Assembly (NCBI GenBank): GCA_019695055.1
Contig: JAIBAT010000150.1
Span: forward strand, 99,543 to 163,542
DNA length: 64,000 nt
Origin: Candidatus Sumerlaeaceae bacterium
Lineage (GTDB): Bacteria > Sumerlaeota > Sumerlaeia > Sumerlaeales > Sumerlaeaceae
Direction of reading: 5' to 3'
The notes under the pieces were generated by a model, which saw only the letters and a program-made list of their open reading frames with translations, did no database searches and was not told the origin of the DNA. Shown here piece after piece: positions 15,906 to 23,903 of the stretch. Made by a program: the position numbers and the translations under genes. How positions within the stretch are numbered: position 1 is the first letter of the stretch; each line of letters starts with the position of its first letter.

Positions 15906-16697
15906 CTATTGCAGCGGCTTCTGGGCTATGCAGAGGAGGGACATGCCGAAGGGAAGGTTCATGTGCTTGAGGAGCCAGGCCTCGACCTTCATGGTGGCGA
16001 GGAGGCTGGCATTGACGAAACCGGGCAGGGGGAATTCGTCGGTCTTGGGATTGGTGGAGGTTTCCGGTTTGCTGACGAGGCGCTTGATGCGGCGAAAGGC
16101 GGCGGCGGGCAGGTAGGCCGAGGAAACGGAGAAGCTGTACTTGACGGGCTTCAAGCCTGCGCCGGTGACAAGGCTGAGGAATTCGGGTTTCTCGTAGCGG
16201 CGAAAGTGGTGGAGGGCCACGTCGTGGTTGCTCCAGAGGCTCTTGTGGGCCGGGACGGACATAAGGGCCATCCCGCCGGGACGAAGAATCCGGAAAAATT
16301 CGCCCATGAGGCGGTGGTCGTCGCGGATGTGCTCAACGAGGTCGAGGGCGGTGATGACATCGACGCTGGCGGACTGGAGGGGGATGTTGGCGGCGTCGCC
16401 GCGGAGGACATTCCTTAAATTCCGCTGGCGGCAGTAGGTGAGGGCAACCGGCGAGAAATCGAGGCCGACGGCGACCCCCATCTTCTCGAGGTCTTCCAGA
16501 AGGTAACCGGTGCCGCAACCAATATCCACGAGGCGCAGGCGGCCATCGGGATGACGGGCCGGCGCGGTGGCGCAGCCCCAGGACCGCCCCCCGGCGAGGA
16601 TTTCGGCCAGCATGTTGTGGACGACCCGGCGGCGCCCCTGGAACCACCAGTAGCGCTGCTCGAGGGCGTGCATCTTATGGTATTCGGCGGTGTTCAT
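15906..16697 (-). CDS. Class I SAM-dependent methyltransferase
   Basis: 263 residues. Motif I is RLVDIGCGTGYLLEDLEKMG (about 71-90) with the acidic end of strand 2 at GLDFSP, then DVITALDLVEHIRDDHRLM and the LRPGGMALMSVPAHKSLWSNHD loop of Methyltransf_11/23 enzymes. The opening EYHKMHALEQRYWWFQGRRRVV is typical of methyltransferases found in glycan and lipid clusters. A Cys-rich insert with little similarity lies before motif I. The substrate is unknown. It is the first gene of a two-gene unit with the downstream epimerase, and it diverges from the pseudopilin cluster. Confidence 0.88.
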   Translation of the reverse strand: MNTAEYHKMHALEQRYWWFQGRRRVVHNMLAEILAGGRSWGCATAPARHPDGRLRLVDIGCGTGYLLEDLEKMGVAVGLDFSPVALTYCRQRNLRNVLRGDAANIPLQSASVDVITALDLVEHIRDDHRLMGEFFRILRPGGMALMSVPAHKSLWSNHDVALHHFRRYEKPEFLSLVTGAGLKPVKYSFSVSSAYLPAAAFRRIKRLVSKPETSTNPKTDEFPLPGFVNASLLATMKVEAWLLKHMNLPFGMSLLCIAQKPLQ

Positions 16698-17028: not shown

Positions 17029-19308
17029 ATGCGGATAACTCATGGCGCCCGAGGCTCTTCCTTTATCCTCGTTCTGGCGCTGCTCACACTATTGGTTTTT
17101 CTGGCGGCGGTCCTTTCCTATACGTCGCGGCTTGAGGCGCTGACGAGCGGGAACTATGCCAAGATTGCCCAGGCGCGGGAATCGACAGCGACGGGATTGC
17201 CGGCAGCGATGAAATTGGCGCGGGGCGGGACCTCGGTGACGACGATCCTGCAGCCGTGGCACCAGGCGCTGGCCGCAACGACACAGAAGGCTCCGGCGCG
17301 AAGTGCCAATGCGCGAACGACACGAAACATGTATGGCGACAACGCAACAACGTCGGGCCTGGGGCGCGACGTGGCCACAATGCTTGGAACTGGGCTGGAG
17401 GCGGCCATCGCGGTGGACGACCTGTGTTCAAAGGTTAACGTGAATGCAATCCAGAGTGAGCGGGCCTTTGAAAAATTCCTGAGCGCGGCCCTGAGCGGGG
17501 CAAGCGGATCCATGGCCAGCGGGGCGCAAACCCGGGCGCAGGGATTGTTCGAATATCGCGGCGGGCGGAACGGGGCCGTGGATACGGGAAATCCCATGCT
17601 GGACGGGACCAAGACTTCCAACGAACCGAAGTGGAAGACGGAGCCGGACCTGCGCAAGGCGCCTCCGGAAGGCGTGAAGCGGTTTGAAACGGTGCAGGAG
17701 TTGCGTCAGTCGCGGCGCACTTCGCCGCAGTTGTTCACGGACAAGGAAATGAGTGTCCTGGGGCGCTATGTGACGGTATTCTCGCAGTCGCCCGAGGTAC
17801 TTAACAAGCCGGATGGCTCAAGCCTTCCGAAGTTGCCGATGGAAGGAATCACGGCCCACAGCGTTTATCTGGCTCTGCGACAGGCGTTTCCGGAGAAGGA
17901 TCCGCGGCTGCTGATGCAGTTCGCGGCAAACGTGATGGATTACTATAATCCCGACGGGCCGCCGACGGTGATCACGGATCCGCGGCATCCGCAGCCATGG
18001 AACGCGCTGTTTGGCGTGAAGCCGACGCCGCTGATTACGGAGATTTATCCGCGGGCCATGGGAGTCGGGGAAAACTCGACACAGGGACAGTTTGTGGAGA
18101 TTTACAACCCCTGGGGGCAGCCCATGTCGCTTGTCAATTGGCGGCTGGCCATTGCGGCGACGAATGGCGCCACGGGTGGAGTGACGCTGAATGCGGTGCT
18201 GCCGCCGGGTGGGTACCTGATTGTCACCAACAACTACGACAAGCCCGACCAGAAGGACCCCGCAGAGACGGGATCGTTTCTCTCGATCTTTGGCGCGCGG
18301 CAGGACGGAGGGCAGAAGAAGGTGGTCACCGACGCCGGATTCCGCCTGCCGGAGGAGAATTCCTTCGTGGCGCTGATAGACAACAATGGCGGGCTAATCG
18401 ACGTGTTCAGCTACACGGACGTGGTCGGACACAATACCAAGAAGAGCTACCAGCGGGATGACCCGCGGGTGCGGTCGTTCGAGGTGGGCGAGGCCACGCC
18501 GTTTGAGAAGCCGGGGTCAGGGATTTATCATGGCACGGCGGAGGCCGAGATGGCCATGCGCAAGGCGTTCCAGTCGGACAGCCAGGAGACCAGCAGCCCG
18601 GTGGACATGTTGCGGATTTCGACGGCCTACGCAGGATTGCGGGCCAACGGGGAGCGAATGAAACTGGAGCCCCACGGCTGGCAAATGCCGGAATACCTGA
18701 AGTCTGTGGAGCCCAAGGCCACGAATTTTGATGTGTCGCTGGTGGATGTTTTCACGACGGTCAAGCCGCCAAAGGCGGAGGGGGATGAAACGTCCGGGGC
18801 AGCGACGCTGCGAACGAAACTGGCAAACCTGAAAGTTGGTCAGAAGATCATCGAAGATTACGAGAAGCGCAACAGCGAGACGGTAACCACGGGGACCACC
18901 TACTATGCCTATGGTCGCCTGAACGTAAACACCTGTGCCAAGGTGGCTTATTTCAGCCTGGATGGTCTGGTGGATGGAACCGATTTCATCACGGCGAGCG
19001 TGGTGGACGGGCTGGAGAACTTCCGCCAGAAGAGCGAGGGGCAGAAAACCGTGCCTTTCCTCAATACGAGCGACTTTTTGCTGAAAGTGTTCCCGGACAA
19101 GCTGTCGGACAGCCAGTTTGCGGCTGCTGCGAAGCTATTGGACCAGGTAACGGTGAGTTCCAGCTCTTTCAACATCACGGCGGAGAACCGAGCCGACAGC
19201 CAACCGGGTGGTGGCAACGGGGTCAGGCCGTCTTTGGTGAGAATGAACTGGATGGTGGCGCTTGACCGCCAGCCTTTGAGCCTTATTGGTTTCAGTACGG
19301 ATCATTAG
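17029..19308 (+). CDS. GspK-like minor pseudopilin with lamin-tail-like domain
   Basis: 759 residues. The N-terminus (RGSSFILVLALLTLLVFLAAVLSY) is the class III signal and helix of type II secretion GspK, which as usual lacks the Glu at +5. VDDLCSKVNVNA (~128-140) matches the D..(G)K(I/V)N(L/V)N signature that follows in GspK. Residues ~333-460 (LITEIYPRAMG, FVEIYNPWGQPMSLVNWRL, LPPGGYLIVTNN) look like a lamin-tail domain, a beta-sandwich found in extracellular proteins and not part of classic GspK (~330 residues). GspK caps the pseudopilus tip, so this could display a binding domain there. Six prepilin-like genes follow on the same strand after a 142-base spacer with its own promoter. Confidence 0.82.
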   Translation: MRITHGARGSSFILVLALLTLLVFLAAVLSYTSRLEALTSGNYAKIAQARESTATGLPAAMKLARGGTSVTTILQPWHQALAATTQKAPARSANARTTRNMYGDNATTSGLGRDVATMLGTGLEAAIAVDDLCSKVNVNAIQSERAFEKFLSAALSGASGSMASGAQTRAQGLFEYRGGRNGAVDTGNPMLDGTKTSNEPKWKTEPDLRKAPPEGVKRFETVQELRQSRRTSPQLFTDKEMSVLGRYVTVFSQSPEVLNKPDGSSLPKLPMEGITAHSVYLALRQAFPEKDPRLLMQFAANVMDYYNPDGPPTVITDPRHPQPWNALFGVKPTPLITEIYPRAMGVGENSTQGQFVEIYNPWGQPMSLVNWRLAIAATNGATGGVTLNAVLPPGGYLIVTNNYDKPDQKDPAETGSFLSIFGARQDGGQKKVVTDAGFRLPEENSFVALIDNNGGLIDVFSYTDVVGHNTKKSYQRDDPRVRSFEVGEATPFEKPGSGIYHGTAEAEMAMRKAFQSDSQETSSPVDMLRISTAYAGLRANGERMKLEPHGWQMPEYLKSVEPKATNFDVSLVDVFTTVKPPKAEGDETSGAATLRTKLANLKVGQKIIEDYEKRNSETVTTGTTYYAYGRLNVNTCAKVAYFSLDGLVDGTDFITASVVDGLENFRQKSEGQKTVPFLNTSDFLLKVFPDKLSDSQFAAAAKLLDQVTVSSSSFNITAENRADSQPGGGNGVRPSLVRMNWMVALDRQPLSLIGFSTDH

Positions 19309-19370
19309 TAAAAGCAATGGACAAGCTGGGTTTGACCATTGATGTTAGTGGAGTTTTTAGGGTTCCCGGG

Positions 19371-19399
19371 TTGACAGATTTTGAGGGAAGGCATATAAG
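19371..19399 (+). promoter_or_regulatory. Sigma70-type promoter of the pseudopilin array
   Basis: TTGACA at 19371-19376, a 17-base spacer and TATAAG at 19394-19399, an almost consensus pair. The expected start point, near 19406, gives a 5' leader of about 45 bases before the ATG at 19451. It separates transcription of the six prepilin-like genes from the GspK-like gene upstream. Confidence 0.75.
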
Positions 19400-19450
19400 C
19401 TTTCTGCGGATAATGGTATGGTTCAGGGCCGTCTAAATATCGTAAAATCA

Positions 19451-20218
19451 ATGCGTTCCAAGGGCTTCACGCTCGTGGAAATGCTGATTGTTGCTGCGCT
19501 AATCGCGCTGTTTGCGGGTCTTGCCGTGATCAATATCCAGCAGCAGTTTGAACTGAACAAGCAGAAGGCTGCCACGGCCGAGTGCCGCGAAATTGGCACG
19601 GCGATGAGTTTTGCGCTCAATGACCTCGGTTTTTACCCCAAAATCTGCTTCCTGCGATTCAATTATCTGACGCTAACACAGGAAATCTCGACGCTTCCGC
19701 TGAACCAGTTCGAGTACCACGGGCTGACGGTGGGCGGGATTACTTCGCGGCTGCAGAACCAATGGAGCAAGGCTGGTGCTTATGCGGCTTTCAACTTCAA
19801 GAAGCTGGCTTTGATGCAGATTCCCGGTTCGAGTCGCGACCCGTTTGAGTGGCCTGCGGATCCGTGGAATAATCCGTATGTGGCTTACATCGTGCAGGCC
19901 GTGCAAAACGGCAATACCGTGGAGAACCGGTTCATCAAGTCGGCTGGGGAAACGGGCAATTTCTTTGCGGGTGTTGTCAGCTATGGCCGCAACCGTGTGC
20001 CGGGGTTGACGGATGAGCCGACGGGAGCGGATATCAATGCGCGCAACGCTCTGCGGCTGTATAAGGATGGTGCCGCTTTCAATACTTACATTGCGCTGAC
20101 GGAAACGGAATACGATGCGGCGAAGGCGGCCATGATCTTCACGTCGCCGCCGAATCCGACTCCGCTGACGCCGCGCATTCGCGACAACAATTCTGACGAT
20201 CGTGTTTTTGAATTCTGA
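19451..20218 (+). CDS. Prepilin-like protein 1 of the array
   Basis: 255 residues from the ATG at 19451; an ATG at 19418 would add 11 residues but leaves almost no leader after the promoter. MRSKGFTLVEMLIVAALIALFAGLAV is a type IV/GspG prepilin leader: cleavage after Gly, Phe at +1, Glu at +5, then the hydrophobic helix. The C-terminal domain has DPWNNPY, a YGRNRVPG loop and ends with DNNSDDRVFEF. It is longer than GspG (~140). It is the first of six related tandem genes and probably a pseudopilin subunit exported by a type II secretion-like machine encoded elsewhere. No ATPase or platform gene is in the window. Confidence 0.88.
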   Translation: MRSKGFTLVEMLIVAALIALFAGLAVINIQQQFELNKQKAATAECREIGTAMSFALNDLGFYPKICFLRFNYLTLTQEISTLPLNQFEYHGLTVGGITSRLQNQWSKAGAYAAFNFKKLALMQIPGSSRDPFEWPADPWNNPYVAYIVQAVQNGNTVENRFIKSAGETGNFFAGVVSYGRNRVPGLTDEPTGADINARNALRLYKDGAAFNTYIALTETEYDAAKAAMIFTSPPNPTPLTPRIRDNNSDDRVFEF

Positions 20219-20243
20219 CAAGGCGAGGACCATTTCGAGGACC

Positions 20244-21047
20244 ATGAAACCTGAGTCTAAAGATATGAGCCGGCGGCAAGGCCGGTGGGCACGGCGCAGC
20301 CTTGTGGCGCGGCGGCATGGGCGCAATCGCGGCTTCACGGCCATTGAAATCGCCATGGTGGCAACAGTCATCGCGATCTTTGCGCTGCTGGTGCTGCCGT
20401 TGTTCCGCAACCGCGTGGAAGAGGCCAAGGTGGCGGCGGCCAAGGCGGACCTGACGAGCCTGATGAAGGCCGAGGAACTGGTGTTGGCAGATACGGGCTT
20501 CCTGATTCGCCTGGAGGATTTGGACAACGTTGAGGGATTGGCTGCGGACGCGACGGGTGTGGCCCCGGCCATTTACCTCTCCACTCCGGGATTTTATTAC
20601 GTACCCCGCGCGGCGCTTTACACCGGATCGCGCGTGGTTCTCAATTCGACGCAGCGCGATGACCTCGCCAAGAAATTCCGCGGACCCTACATAGCCTTCC
20701 AGAAGTCGATCACTTATGGGGACCTGACGACACTGGCGAGCTACGCATCGCTGGCCAACGTCTTGCTGGTGAGCCGGACGGGTAATGTGGCCAGCCCGAT
20801 TTACGACGTAACTGGCGGTTCGTTCCCCGATGCAACGGTGAACCGGATCCCCTTGGATCCGTGGGGCAATCCCTATCTGTTTTATCCGTCGACGGCGGAA
20901 ACGGCTTTCAATGCCATATACTCTCTGGGCAGGGACGGTTTGCCAGGGCGGTTGACGGGCACCACGCCAGCGGATTTCCTGCCCGGTGCAACAAACGGGT
21001 TGGGAACGGTCGGTACGGACATTGACGATCTTGAGGTGCGTTTCTAA
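20244..21047 (+). CDS. Prepilin-like protein 2 of the array
   Basis: 267 residues from the ATG at 20244, chosen because GAGGACC lies directly before it; a start at 20202 would overlap the previous gene. The basic leader is long (~30 residues, MKPESKDMSRRQ...) before NRGFTAIEIAMVATVIAIFALLVLPLF, with Gly-1, Phe+1 and Glu+5. The C-terminal part contains LDPWGNPYLFYP, IYSLGRDGLPG and ends with GTDIDDLEVRF, the most GspG-like tail of the array. The stop overlaps the next start as TAATG, so translation of the two is coupled. Confidence 0.88.
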   Translation: MKPESKDMSRRQGRWARRSLVARRHGRNRGFTAIEIAMVATVIAIFALLVLPLFRNRVEEAKVAAAKADLTSLMKAEELVLADTGFLIRLEDLDNVEGLAADATGVAPAIYLSTPGFYYVPRAALYTGSRVVLNSTQRDDLAKKFRGPYIAFQKSITYGDLTTLASYASLANVLLVSRTGNVASPIYDVTGGSFPDATVNRIPLDPWGNPYLFYPSTAETAFNAIYSLGRDGLPGRLTGTTPADFLPGATNGLGTVGTDIDDLEVRF

Positions 21048-21802
21048 TGATGAGAACAGGGCGCTATAGCGCGGCGGGACGCCGGGCCGGTTTCACGATC
21101 ATCGAGCTTTTGATCGCGGTGATCATCATCGGCATTCTTGTCGCCATCGTTATCAACGTCTACACGTCACGCGCGGAAGACGCACGGCAGGCAGCGGTGC
21201 GGGCCGACCTTGAGGCAATCTGCACGGCGCAGGAACACGCAGGCATCGACACGGCATACTTTTACCAGCTTTATTGCCTGGACGACGTATATCAGGGCGA
21301 CGGCGTTGCCCCAGCGAACACGGCCACGGACCGGGCCGACGGTCTGACGGATGAGGCCATTCGTACCGACGTTTCGAGCGACCCCAAGCGCATCTTCATC
21401 GACACGAAGGATGGCGATGTGCCGGCGGGTTACACAGGAATTTTCAACGGCTTGCTGGCGAGCGAAACGCGCTTCAACTGGCGCGGGCCCTACTGCAACA
21501 TTAGCAAGAAGTCCCAAATTAACGAATTTACAGGGCCAACGGCCTCGGTTCAAGTGCCGGCGGGTTTCCCCATCGACCCGTGGGGACGCCCCTATCTGTT
21601 CTTTACGAAGAAGGGATATGTGGATCCCATCACACTGTCGCTGGTGACATCGCTGACGGTCAGTGGTGTGGCCGTGACAAGTGCCCAGATTCCGTTTGAC
21701 CGACCAACCATTCTGTCACTGGGCCGTGATGGGGCCGTTGGTGACGGGGCCGTACCCGGTTCGGTGTTTGGCCAGGGTGATGATATTTACAGGCAGTTTT
21801 AG
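21047..21802 (+). CDS. Prepilin-like protein 3 of the array
   Basis: 251 residues; its ATG shares one base with the previous stop. MMRTGRYSAAGRRAGFTIIELLIAVIIIGILVAIVINVY has a 14-residue leader, Gly-1, Phe+1 and Glu+5. The soluble domain holds IDPWGRPYLFFTKKGY and LSLGRDGAVGDGA, and ends with GQGDDIYRQF. It keeps the array pattern of a DPWxxPY motif followed by a Gly/Asp-rich loop. No Cys-rich or catalytic motif is seen. It is followed 20 bases later by the next array gene with AGGA as ribosome site. Confidence 0.88.
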   Translation: MMRTGRYSAAGRRAGFTIIELLIAVIIIGILVAIVINVYTSRAEDARQAAVRADLEAICTAQEHAGIDTAYFYQLYCLDDVYQGDGVAPANTATDRADGLTDEAIRTDVSSDPKRIFIDTKDGDVPAGYTGIFNGLLASETRFNWRGPYCNISKKSQINEFTGPTASVQVPAGFPIDPWGRPYLFFTKKGYVDPITLSLVTSLTVSGVAVTSAQIPFDRPTILSLGRDGAVGDGAVPGSVFGQGDDIYRQF

Positions 21803-21822
21803 GAAAGGATGACCTGCGTCTC

Positions 21823-22578
21823 ATGAGACGTTATACGAACCATAAGGTCCGCGGTGTGACGCTGACAGAGTTGCTGGTGGTCATGGTGATCGTGACGCTG
21901 TTTTCCACGATCGCAGTGATTGCCTATATCAACCGCATGGAAGAGGCGCGCATCTCGATCGCGAGAGGCGAATGCCGGGAATTGGCCGAGGCCGAGGAGC
22001 AGTGCGCCCTGATTCATGGTTATTATGTGCCGCTTCAGGTGTTGGACGACAAACCGGATCTGAACAACATCACCTCCACGGGCGATGCCATTGACCTTGA
22101 TCTTCTGAACAGCCTGTTTGTTATAAACCCCCTTGTTCCACCGGTCACGCAGCAGGGAAACCAGTTGAATATGAACAATACCAACCAGCGGATCCAAGAC
22201 TTGGTGGACAACTGGCAGGGGCCGTTCCTGACCACGCAGCGGGTTTATACTGGCAACGCAGACCCCACAAATCCGAACTTCATCAACTCTACAGAGATCC
22301 ACTTGGATTTTCCCCTGGATCCCTGGGGCACACCCTACCGGTTCTACTCACCCCTTGGAATCATTGGTTCCAATGCCACCACGCAGGACTATACGAATCT
22401 TGGAGTGGCTTTCAGCAACGGCATCCTGACCAACAACATCCAGGAGCCGTTTGATCGCTACGCCGTCACGAGTTGGGGACGCAACACCCAACCCAACACT
22501 TTGACGCCAAGTGACACGGACGACATCATCTACCAGTTTGGCATGGCGGGTGTGGAATCGACATTTGCAAACCCCTGA
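21823..22578 (+). CDS. Prepilin-like protein 4 of the array
   Basis: 251 residues. The cleavage site is unusual: VRGVTLTELLVVMVIVTLFSTIAVIAY keeps Gly-1 and Glu+5 but has Val instead of Phe at +1. The C-terminal domain has LDPWGTPYRFYSPLG, a SWGRNTQPN loop and SDTDDIIYQFGMAG near the end, with about ten extra residues compared with its neighbours. The central part is Asn/Thr-rich. It is encoded between two other array members in the same orientation with short spacers, so a structural role in the same fibre or complex is inferred. Confidence 0.86.
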   Translation: MRRYTNHKVRGVTLTELLVVMVIVTLFSTIAVIAYINRMEEARISIARGECRELAEAEEQCALIHGYYVPLQVLDDKPDLNNITSTGDAIDLDLLNSLFVINPLVPPVTQQGNQLNMNNTNQRIQDLVDNWQGPFLTTQRVYTGNADPTNPNFINSTEIHLDFPLDPWGTPYRFYSPLGIIGSNATTQDYTNLGVAFSNGILTNNIQEPFDRYAVTSWGRNTQPNTLTPSDTDDIIYQFGMAGVESTFANP

Positions 22579-22631
22579 CAGGGCATAATTGACATATAAT
22601 GGTTTACGGACGAACGGGAGACATAGGGAAA

Positions 22632-23231
22632 ATGAGGAATCAGAAGGGTTTCACGCTGCTGGAGCTGCTTGTGGTGGTGTTGATTCTCAGCCTGCTGGCG
22701 ACCATGGTGGTCGGCATGTATCTCAACCAGATGAACAAGGCGCGCATCGCGGTTGCCCAGGGCACCATCCGCGAGATTGAGCATGGCGCGCTGCGGTATC
22801 AACTGGACTTGGGTGTCTTCCCCCCAAGCCTGAGCCTGAATCCGGCGATTGTGTCGGGCGGTGGTTGCGGCTTTGTTTACGAGGCGTTGGTCCATAGCGT
22901 CGGCGGCACGAGCCAGAATCCGTCGGACTCGCGCTGGACGGGGCCCTACATCTCTGTGGAGAATGTGAATCTCGACCAGAGTGGCGGCGACGGCAACGTG
23001 CAGATTCTGGACCCATGGCGCACGCCCTATCGCTTTGTGCGCAAGAATGACTACGCGGCGTCGGGAACTCCCCTGCCATCGGGCAGTCCCTACATTGGCG
23101 AAACGTGGTATAACCCCCAGACGGTGCAGGTTGTCTCCTATGGCGCCGATGGCCTGCCCGGCAATGCCGGCTTGGGCACCTTTCCGAACAACCTCGGCGA
23201 GGGCGACGACGTAACGAATTTCGGACTATAG
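22632..23231 (+). CDS. Prepilin-like protein 5 of the array
   Basis: 199 residues from the ATG at 22632 (an ATG at 22599 would add 11 residues). MRNQKGFTLLELLVVVLILSLLATMVVGMYLNQMNKARIAVAQGTIREIEHGALRYQLDLGVFPPSL is very close to GspG over its whole N-terminal half. The C-terminal part reads ILDPWRTPYRFV, then GETWYNPQTVQVVSYGADGLPG and ends EGDDVTNFGL. It and the next protein are the closest pair in the array and match along their length, which suggests a recent duplication. Confidence 0.88.
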   Translation: MRNQKGFTLLELLVVVLILSLLATMVVGMYLNQMNKARIAVAQGTIREIEHGALRYQLDLGVFPPSLSLNPAIVSGGGCGFVYEALVHSVGGTSQNPSDSRWTGPYISVENVNLDQSGGDGNVQILDPWRTPYRFVRKNDYAASGTPLPSGSPYIGETWYNPQTVQVVSYGADGLPGNAGLGTFPNNLGEGDDVTNFGL

Positions 23232-23279
23232 GCCCGCAAATCAGTGCGGACGGAACAGGCATCCCAGATCGTGCGAAAA

Positions 23280-23903
23280 ATGTTGGATAAGCGCACCTCC
23301 CGGCAGGTGAAACCCGCCGCCTTCACGCTCATCGAGCTGATGGTGGTGGTGATCATTCTGAGTATGCTGGCGTTGCTTGTCATGGGATCGTATTTCAATC
23401 AGGTGGAGCGCGCCCGCAAGGCAGCCGCCAAGGCAACGATCGCCGAGATGGAGGTGGCCATCACACGTTATCAAGTGGATACCTGCGTGTATCCGCCCAG
23501 CCTGAGCGCCGCCAGCCCCGACGGCTGCGGAATGTTGGAACTGGTCCTGATCCACAGCACGAGTGGCAACTCGAACATTCCTTCCAGCGCCATGTGGAAG
23601 GGCCCCTACCTGACGGTAAAGCAGGAGCTGCTGGGCGATCTGAATGGCAATAATGTCATTACGGGACTGACGGCTGGCAACGTCCAGATTCTTGACCCAT
23701 GGAATAACGCTTACCGGTACGTGCTGGAATCAAACTATAACCTCTATGGCACGGTCCTGCCGAGTTCACATCCTTACGCCACGACAGAGACTTATTACAA
23801 TCCCTCGACCTTCCAGATCGTATCGCGTGGTCCCGATGGCGTCACACTAGCAGATCCGAACTATGGCACGGGCGCTGACGACATCAATAACTTCGGCGAG
23901 TAG
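23280..23903 (+). CDS. Prepilin-like protein 6 of the array
   Basis: 207 residues from the ATG at 23280; a GTG at 23244 would add 12. The leader ends PAA before FTLIELMVVVIILSMLALLVMG, so the cleavage site has Ala instead of the usual Gly at -1, while Phe+1 and Glu+5 are kept. The domain reads ILDPWNNAYRYV, TETYYNPSTFQIVSRGPDGV and ends ADDINNFGE, paralleling protein 5. Whether prepilin peptidase accepts Ala at -1 here is open. It is the last gene of the array; no clear terminator follows. Confidence 0.86.
   Translation: MLDKRTSRQVKPAAFTLIELMVVVIILSMLALLVMGSYFNQVERARKAAAKATIAEMEVAITRYQVDTCVYPPSLSAASPDGCGMLELVLIHSTSGNSNIPSSAMWKGPYLTVKQELLGDLNGNNVITGLTAGNVQILDPWNNAYRYVLESNYNLYGTVLPSSHPYATTETYYNPSTFQIVSRGPDGVTLADPNYGTGADDINNFGE

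Follow-up and report, generated by a model that had tools for sequence, protein, structure and literature searches.

The prepilin array and its GspK-like gene

The window analysed here is a stretch of 64,000 nucleotides from a Candidatus Sumerlaeaceae genome (G000; 4.34 Mb, 172 contigs, 94.9% complete), hereafter the window genome. It contains seven open reading frames (ORFs), K and G1 to G5b, which run in the same direction with intergenic gaps that are short or negative by their ORF coordinates, consistent with a single transcript for the array. The genes are as follows.

K, 17029..19308, + strand: GspK-like tip pseudopilin, 759 aa, with an inserted lamin-tail domain at approximately residues 335-463 and no Glu5 after the leader Gly
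G1, 19418..20218, + strand: GspG-like prepilin, class 1
G2, 20202..21047, + strand: GspG-like prepilin, class 2, with a GFTAIEIAMVATVIAI leader
G3, 21047..21802, + strand: GspG-like prepilin, class 3
G4, 21823..22578, + strand: GspG-like prepilin, class 4, its C-terminus extending a short way past DDIIYQF
G5a, 22599..23231, + strand: GspG-like prepilin, class 5, the class closest to canonical GspG
G5b, 23244..23903, + strand: further class 5 prepilin, sharing 48% identity with G5a

The preliminary description of this DNA claimed six tandem prepilin genes with a common C-terminal signature behind a GspK-like gene. This was confirmed by the ORFs, by a type III leader of the form [GA][FV]TxxE in all six of the small ORFs (detected as N_methyl or IV_pilin_GFxxxE matches), and by a DPWxx[PA]Y motif, likewise found in six of six. 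The acidic/Phe C-termini of the six are DDRVFEF, DDLEVRF, DDIYRQF, DDIIYQFG plus the extension, DDVTNFGL, and DDINNFGE. Judged from sequence, the shared signature is that of GspG (T2SSG, TIGR01710), with no new motif. Against the GspG equivalog model (NCBIfam), the array prepilins scored 30 to 57 bits and none reached the cut-off of 88.85; we therefore class them as predicted GspG-like prepilins, yet not as canonical GspG. With a best GspG score of 57 bits, the six do not resolve into separate classical pseudopilin classes; such a resolution had been envisaged as counting against a new system. The predicted structure of G2 (pLDDT 79) had GspG proteins of the EpsG type as its best five PDB matches, with poor E-values of 0.2 or worse. 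Pairwise identities among the six prepilins were 24 to 34%, the exception being the G5a/G5b pair at 48%, which is the sole duplication within the array. G5 is the shortest and most conserved of the five classes. The true start of G2 may lie downstream of position 20202. Scanning for sigma-70 promoters did not yield one at position 19371, where a promoter had been proposed, though one of another type may lie there.

The K protein of the window matched the GspK model weakly, scoring 24.9 bits where the NCBIfam cut-off is 130, but the GspK character of its relatives was clear. A domain search of 17 K homologues detected the lamin-tail domain (LTD) in 17, HHH_3 in 12, and T2SSK in 10, and Glu5 was absent from all 17. 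GspK is known to be without Glu5, and we regard K as a predicted GspK-type minor pseudopilin that has T2SSK domains and lacks Glu5. The lamin-tail domain was present in K of both phyla in which the array was found (see below), and K of the second phylum also contained T2SSK. The predicted structure of K (pLDDT 75) gave lamin tail domains as its best matches (E-value of 5e-6) and, in the XcpGHIJK filament model, a weak match to chain T, which we take to be XcpX, the GspK homologue. Upstream of K, on the opposite strand, lies a methyltransferase gene (15906-16697) that is found beside the array in five Sumerlaeaceae loci; a few further neighbour genes were common to four loci.

Five subunit classes in a fixed order

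The array is kept in relatives, throughout the Sumerlaeota (BRC1) and in two genomes of a second phylum. The order K-G1-G2-G3-G4-G5 was observed in all but one of the 32 Sumerlaeota genomes inspected. The exception is G008, in which the gene at position 4 (L164:6900-7808) has a G4-type leader and scores best with the G3 model, possibly reflecting a gene conversion or replacement. K was matched in 37 of the 41 genomes searched. Of 40 Sumerlaeota genomes, 38 had a G2 match with an E-value of 1e-50 or less, among them G039, which belongs to another class. A search with G2 (E-value of 1e-12 or less) of approximately 250 further genomes outside the Sumerlaeota revealed no other array, and the weaker, single G2 matches outside that phylum were ordinary GspG-type pilins.

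Hidden Markov models (HMMs) for the classes were built from some of the loci and tested on 19 loci outside the training set. The order G1-G2-G3-G4-G5 was exact, or exact up to a contig end, in 18 of the 19, and the median margin over the next-best class was 134 to 173 bits. Mapped onto a 98-sequence tree, the class labels required six changes, against a minimum of five and a mean of 61.6 for shuffled labels. G1 (99/96), G2 (100/93), and G5 (99/92) each formed a single clade spanning both phyla, the second-phylum G3 was unresolved relative to the other G3 sequences, and G5 grouped with canonical GspG at 100/99. These comparisons show the predicted subunits to be five ancient orthologous classes in a fixed order. 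The earlier suggestion of a fibre made of several interchangeable subunits thus stands in part: there are several similar GspG-type subunits in what appears to be one fibre system, but five distinct orthologous classes, held in fixed order across two phyla, do not support their being interchangeable.

Machinery beside the array and elsewhere in the window genome

The preliminary description noted that secretion machinery is absent alongside the genes, and indeed no match to T2SSE, T2SSF, secretin, or peptidase A24 was found inside the window. A system without machinery is nevertheless not supported, as such genes adjoin the array in other families and the window genome has counterparts elsewhere. 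Genome G010 has a block consisting of a PilB-like ATPase, PilT, PilB (MshEN-T2SSE), PilC (T2SSF), H, I, and J, followed by K. In other Sumerlaeia with the full block, it continues beyond K with G1 to G5. The PilT, PilB, PilC, and H-I-J genes adjoin the array in G010 and G024, and partly do so in G009, G012, G015, and L097. H, I, and J lie upstream of K in most other families and form a separate locus in the Sumerlaeaceae. The block is split elsewhere as well, with G1-G5 separate from H-I-J-K in G008, G012, and G019, and K separate from G1-G5 in G004. PilMNOPQ is located approximately 9 kb from G5 in the single-contig genome G005. Beyond pilus genes, no further neighbours were conserved across families, and no PilY1 adjoined the array within the neighbourhoods inspected.

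Both of the second-phylum genomes examined, G167 and G291, contain the block. In G291 it is contiguous, running PilB-like ATPase, PilT, PilB, PilC, H, I, J, K, a secreted protein of 280 aa, and G1-G5. The G167 block is nearly complete, with two G5 copies and with the array turned relative to PilB-PilC. PilT adjoins PilB in both of these genomes, as in G010 and G024, and both have a separate type II secretion system (T2SS) locus with a single GspG. The Pro-rich 280-aa protein encoded between K and G1 in the second phylum (L159:10910-11752 and L184:7676-8518) is weakly cohesin-like in G167 and absent from the Sumerlaeota loci; it is a candidate tip or secretin-associated partner.

A genome-wide search for the ATPase, platform, secretin, and prepilin peptidase genes, as the preliminary description had proposed, found them in the window genome on contigs including C48, C101, C132, C45, C2, and C127. 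PilC is on C132 (787 bits), PilB on C48 (770 bits), H-I-J on C53, and the prepilin peptidase (peptidase A24) on C2. The PilT counterpart on C101 scored 678 bits with a model derived from G010 and 435.7 bits with TIGR01420 (cut-off, 319.1), and it is the only PilT-like ATPase of this genome that is close to the array-associated PilT. A PilMNOPQ set is on C45, with PilM scoring 246.8 bits against a cut-off of 133, and in it PilM and PilN are separate genes, with no GspL-type fusion. We infer that this set serves the array from the position of PilMNOPQ in G005 and from its being the only other complete alignment-complex/secretin set seen. The separate T2SS is on C127 and comprises E, F, H, I, J, K, D, and a PilM-like gene; it was the only T2SS locus seen, and GspG equivalogs over the cut-off are at C132:34391-34699 and C150:29771-30073. 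The orphan system was rejected because machinery stands beside the array in other families. Type III leaders, a PilD-type peptidase, an extension ATPase, and a platform protein, by which type IV filaments are recognised, are all present in the window genome, and what had been called the best candidate for an undescribed system is instead a dispersed type IV filament locus.

The window genome also contains approximately 13 PilT-like and eight PilB/GspE-like ATPase genes, and similar expansions occur in G005, G010, G167, and G291. It has approximately 49 T2SSG-like regions (E-value of 1 or less), many matching in the leader region only, which we read as a large stock of putative prepilin-like proteins of unassigned role. 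Given that stock, a separate PilA could exist.

A probable retractile filament of the type IVa pilus kind

We consider it fairly probable that the array supplies K, as tip subunit, and the GspG-like subunits to a type IVa pilus (T4aP)-like, PilT-equipped filament machine that is dispersed in the Sumerlaeaceae. T2SSs are held to have lost PilT, and their GspL is held to be a fusion of PilM with PilN (PMC10191384), so PilT in the operon, together with separate PilM and PilN in the set putatively assigned to the array, favours a retractile machine like the T4aP over a T2SS. From the genes we infer filament composition, surface exposure, and function along the following lines. The Sumerlaeota would have inherited the machine as one large block, which was then broken up in the Sumerlaeaceae. 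The prepilin peptidase would process nine to ten prepilins, and H-I-J-K would start the filament, by analogy with the T2SS and T4aP, in which these proteins start or cap the fibre (PMC6211770, PMC10191384). K would form the cap and display its lamin-tail domain for binding, PilB and PilC would add subunits, PilMNOPQ would guide the fibre through the outer membrane, and PilT would retract it. G5 is most likely the shaft subunit, as it is the closest to GspG, the most conserved, and the shortest of the five classes. G1-G4 are probably specialised, being sub-tip or interspersed subunits that might enter the fibre at set points, such as the stretch from tip to shaft, and that may be held by calcium-type loops. 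Codon usage, compared with that of ribosomal protein genes in six genomes, singled out no array subunit as the most abundant. A more detailed version holds that the fibre is an ordered retractile heteropolymer with an H-I-J-K tip carrying the lamin-tail domain, four distinct GspG-like subunits at set positions, and a shaft of G5, kept over two phyla and with the subunit order encoded; we offer this only tentatively, and regard it as rather doubtful.

The likeness to the T4aP lies in the PilB/PilT motor set, the platform protein, the H-I-J-K minor pilins and, through the set putatively assigned to the array, separate PilM and PilN and a secretin, as well as in T4aP genes being scattered, as they are in the Sumerlaeaceae. 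However, the T4aP has one major pilin, whereas the array has five ancient GspG-like subunit genes with GspG-type C-termini, a K enlarged by a lamin-tail domain, and no adjoining PilY1. Verru_Chthon cassettes (TIGR02596, TIGR02599) are cassettes of prepilin-like genes in Verrucomicrobia; the array matches them weakly, in the leader region and far under the cut-off, and is made up of G-type genes plus K. By the published description, type IV filaments contain one major pilin, or two at the most, and a few minor ones (PMC10191384). Those with two, such as the filaments of Streptococcus sanguinis (PMC10191384 cites cases of this kind), would share with the array the use of more than one main subunit per filament, but the array has five divergent classes.

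A different reading, which we think unlikely, is that the nine subunits make up a second T2SS, a periplasmic pseudopilus expelling exoenzymes from these polysaccharide degraders, with the five G variants serving different cargo. Every G class resembles GspG and not PilA, and the DPWGxPY motif with its acidic loop, the H-I-J-K gene order, and a K without Glu5 are all shared with the T2SS pseudopilus (GspG plus GspHIJK), in which the H-I-J-K tip recruits substrates (PMC6211770). Yet PilT is within the operon in both phyla, and the T2SS is thought to have originated with the loss of PilT (PMC10191384); PilM and PilN are separate in the set putatively belonging to the array, which has no fusion of the GspL type; the G proteins score under the GspG equivalog cut-off; and the same genomes already have a separate T2SS. 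The array is also unlikely to be the pseudopilus of the C127 T2SS in particular, as that distinct system comes with an H-I-J-K set of its own, and GspG equivalogs are found elsewhere, on C150 and C132.

PilT and the adjacent retractile machinery would also suit a DNA-uptake (competence) pilus, with DNA bound by K and the G proteins and drawn into the cell when PilT retracts the fibre. DNA uptake is possible for type IV filaments (PMC6370729), and K of relatives has a helix-hairpin-helix motif. That motif, however, overlaps the T2SSK domain and so belongs to the ordinary GspK fold, a domain search found no DNA-binding domain in G1-G5, and, as no non-pilus gene is kept beside the array across families, no competence gene is kept there either; we judge this reading quite improbable. 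Least credible of all, to the point of being negligible, is the idea that a single GspG gene was recently duplicated on the spot and that the copies mean nothing for function. All of the subunits do have one domain family in common and G5a and G5b truly are duplicates, but five classes that are 24 to 34% identical and whose orthologues are arranged alike in two phyla refute it for G1-G5 through both tree and synteny. Recent duplication is possible for G5b alone.

For the T4aP-like filament that we favour, a search of the literature outside subscription for arrays of multiple GspG, a lamin tail with a pilin, or BRC1 pili returned no matching paper, and the composition of nine pilins, H-I-J-K plus five G, appears to be undescribed. 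Genes for type IV pilus-dependent twitching have been mentioned for the Sumerlaeota in general terms only (PMC8092238), and the phylum is without a pure culture. That two phyla have retained, in the same order, five subunits of the GspG type along with four tip pilins and a lamin-tail domain at the tip suggests that a filament may require many non-equivalent shaft or sub-tip subunits. The array is well suited to comparative study of what specifies the order of pilins and the function of the tip.
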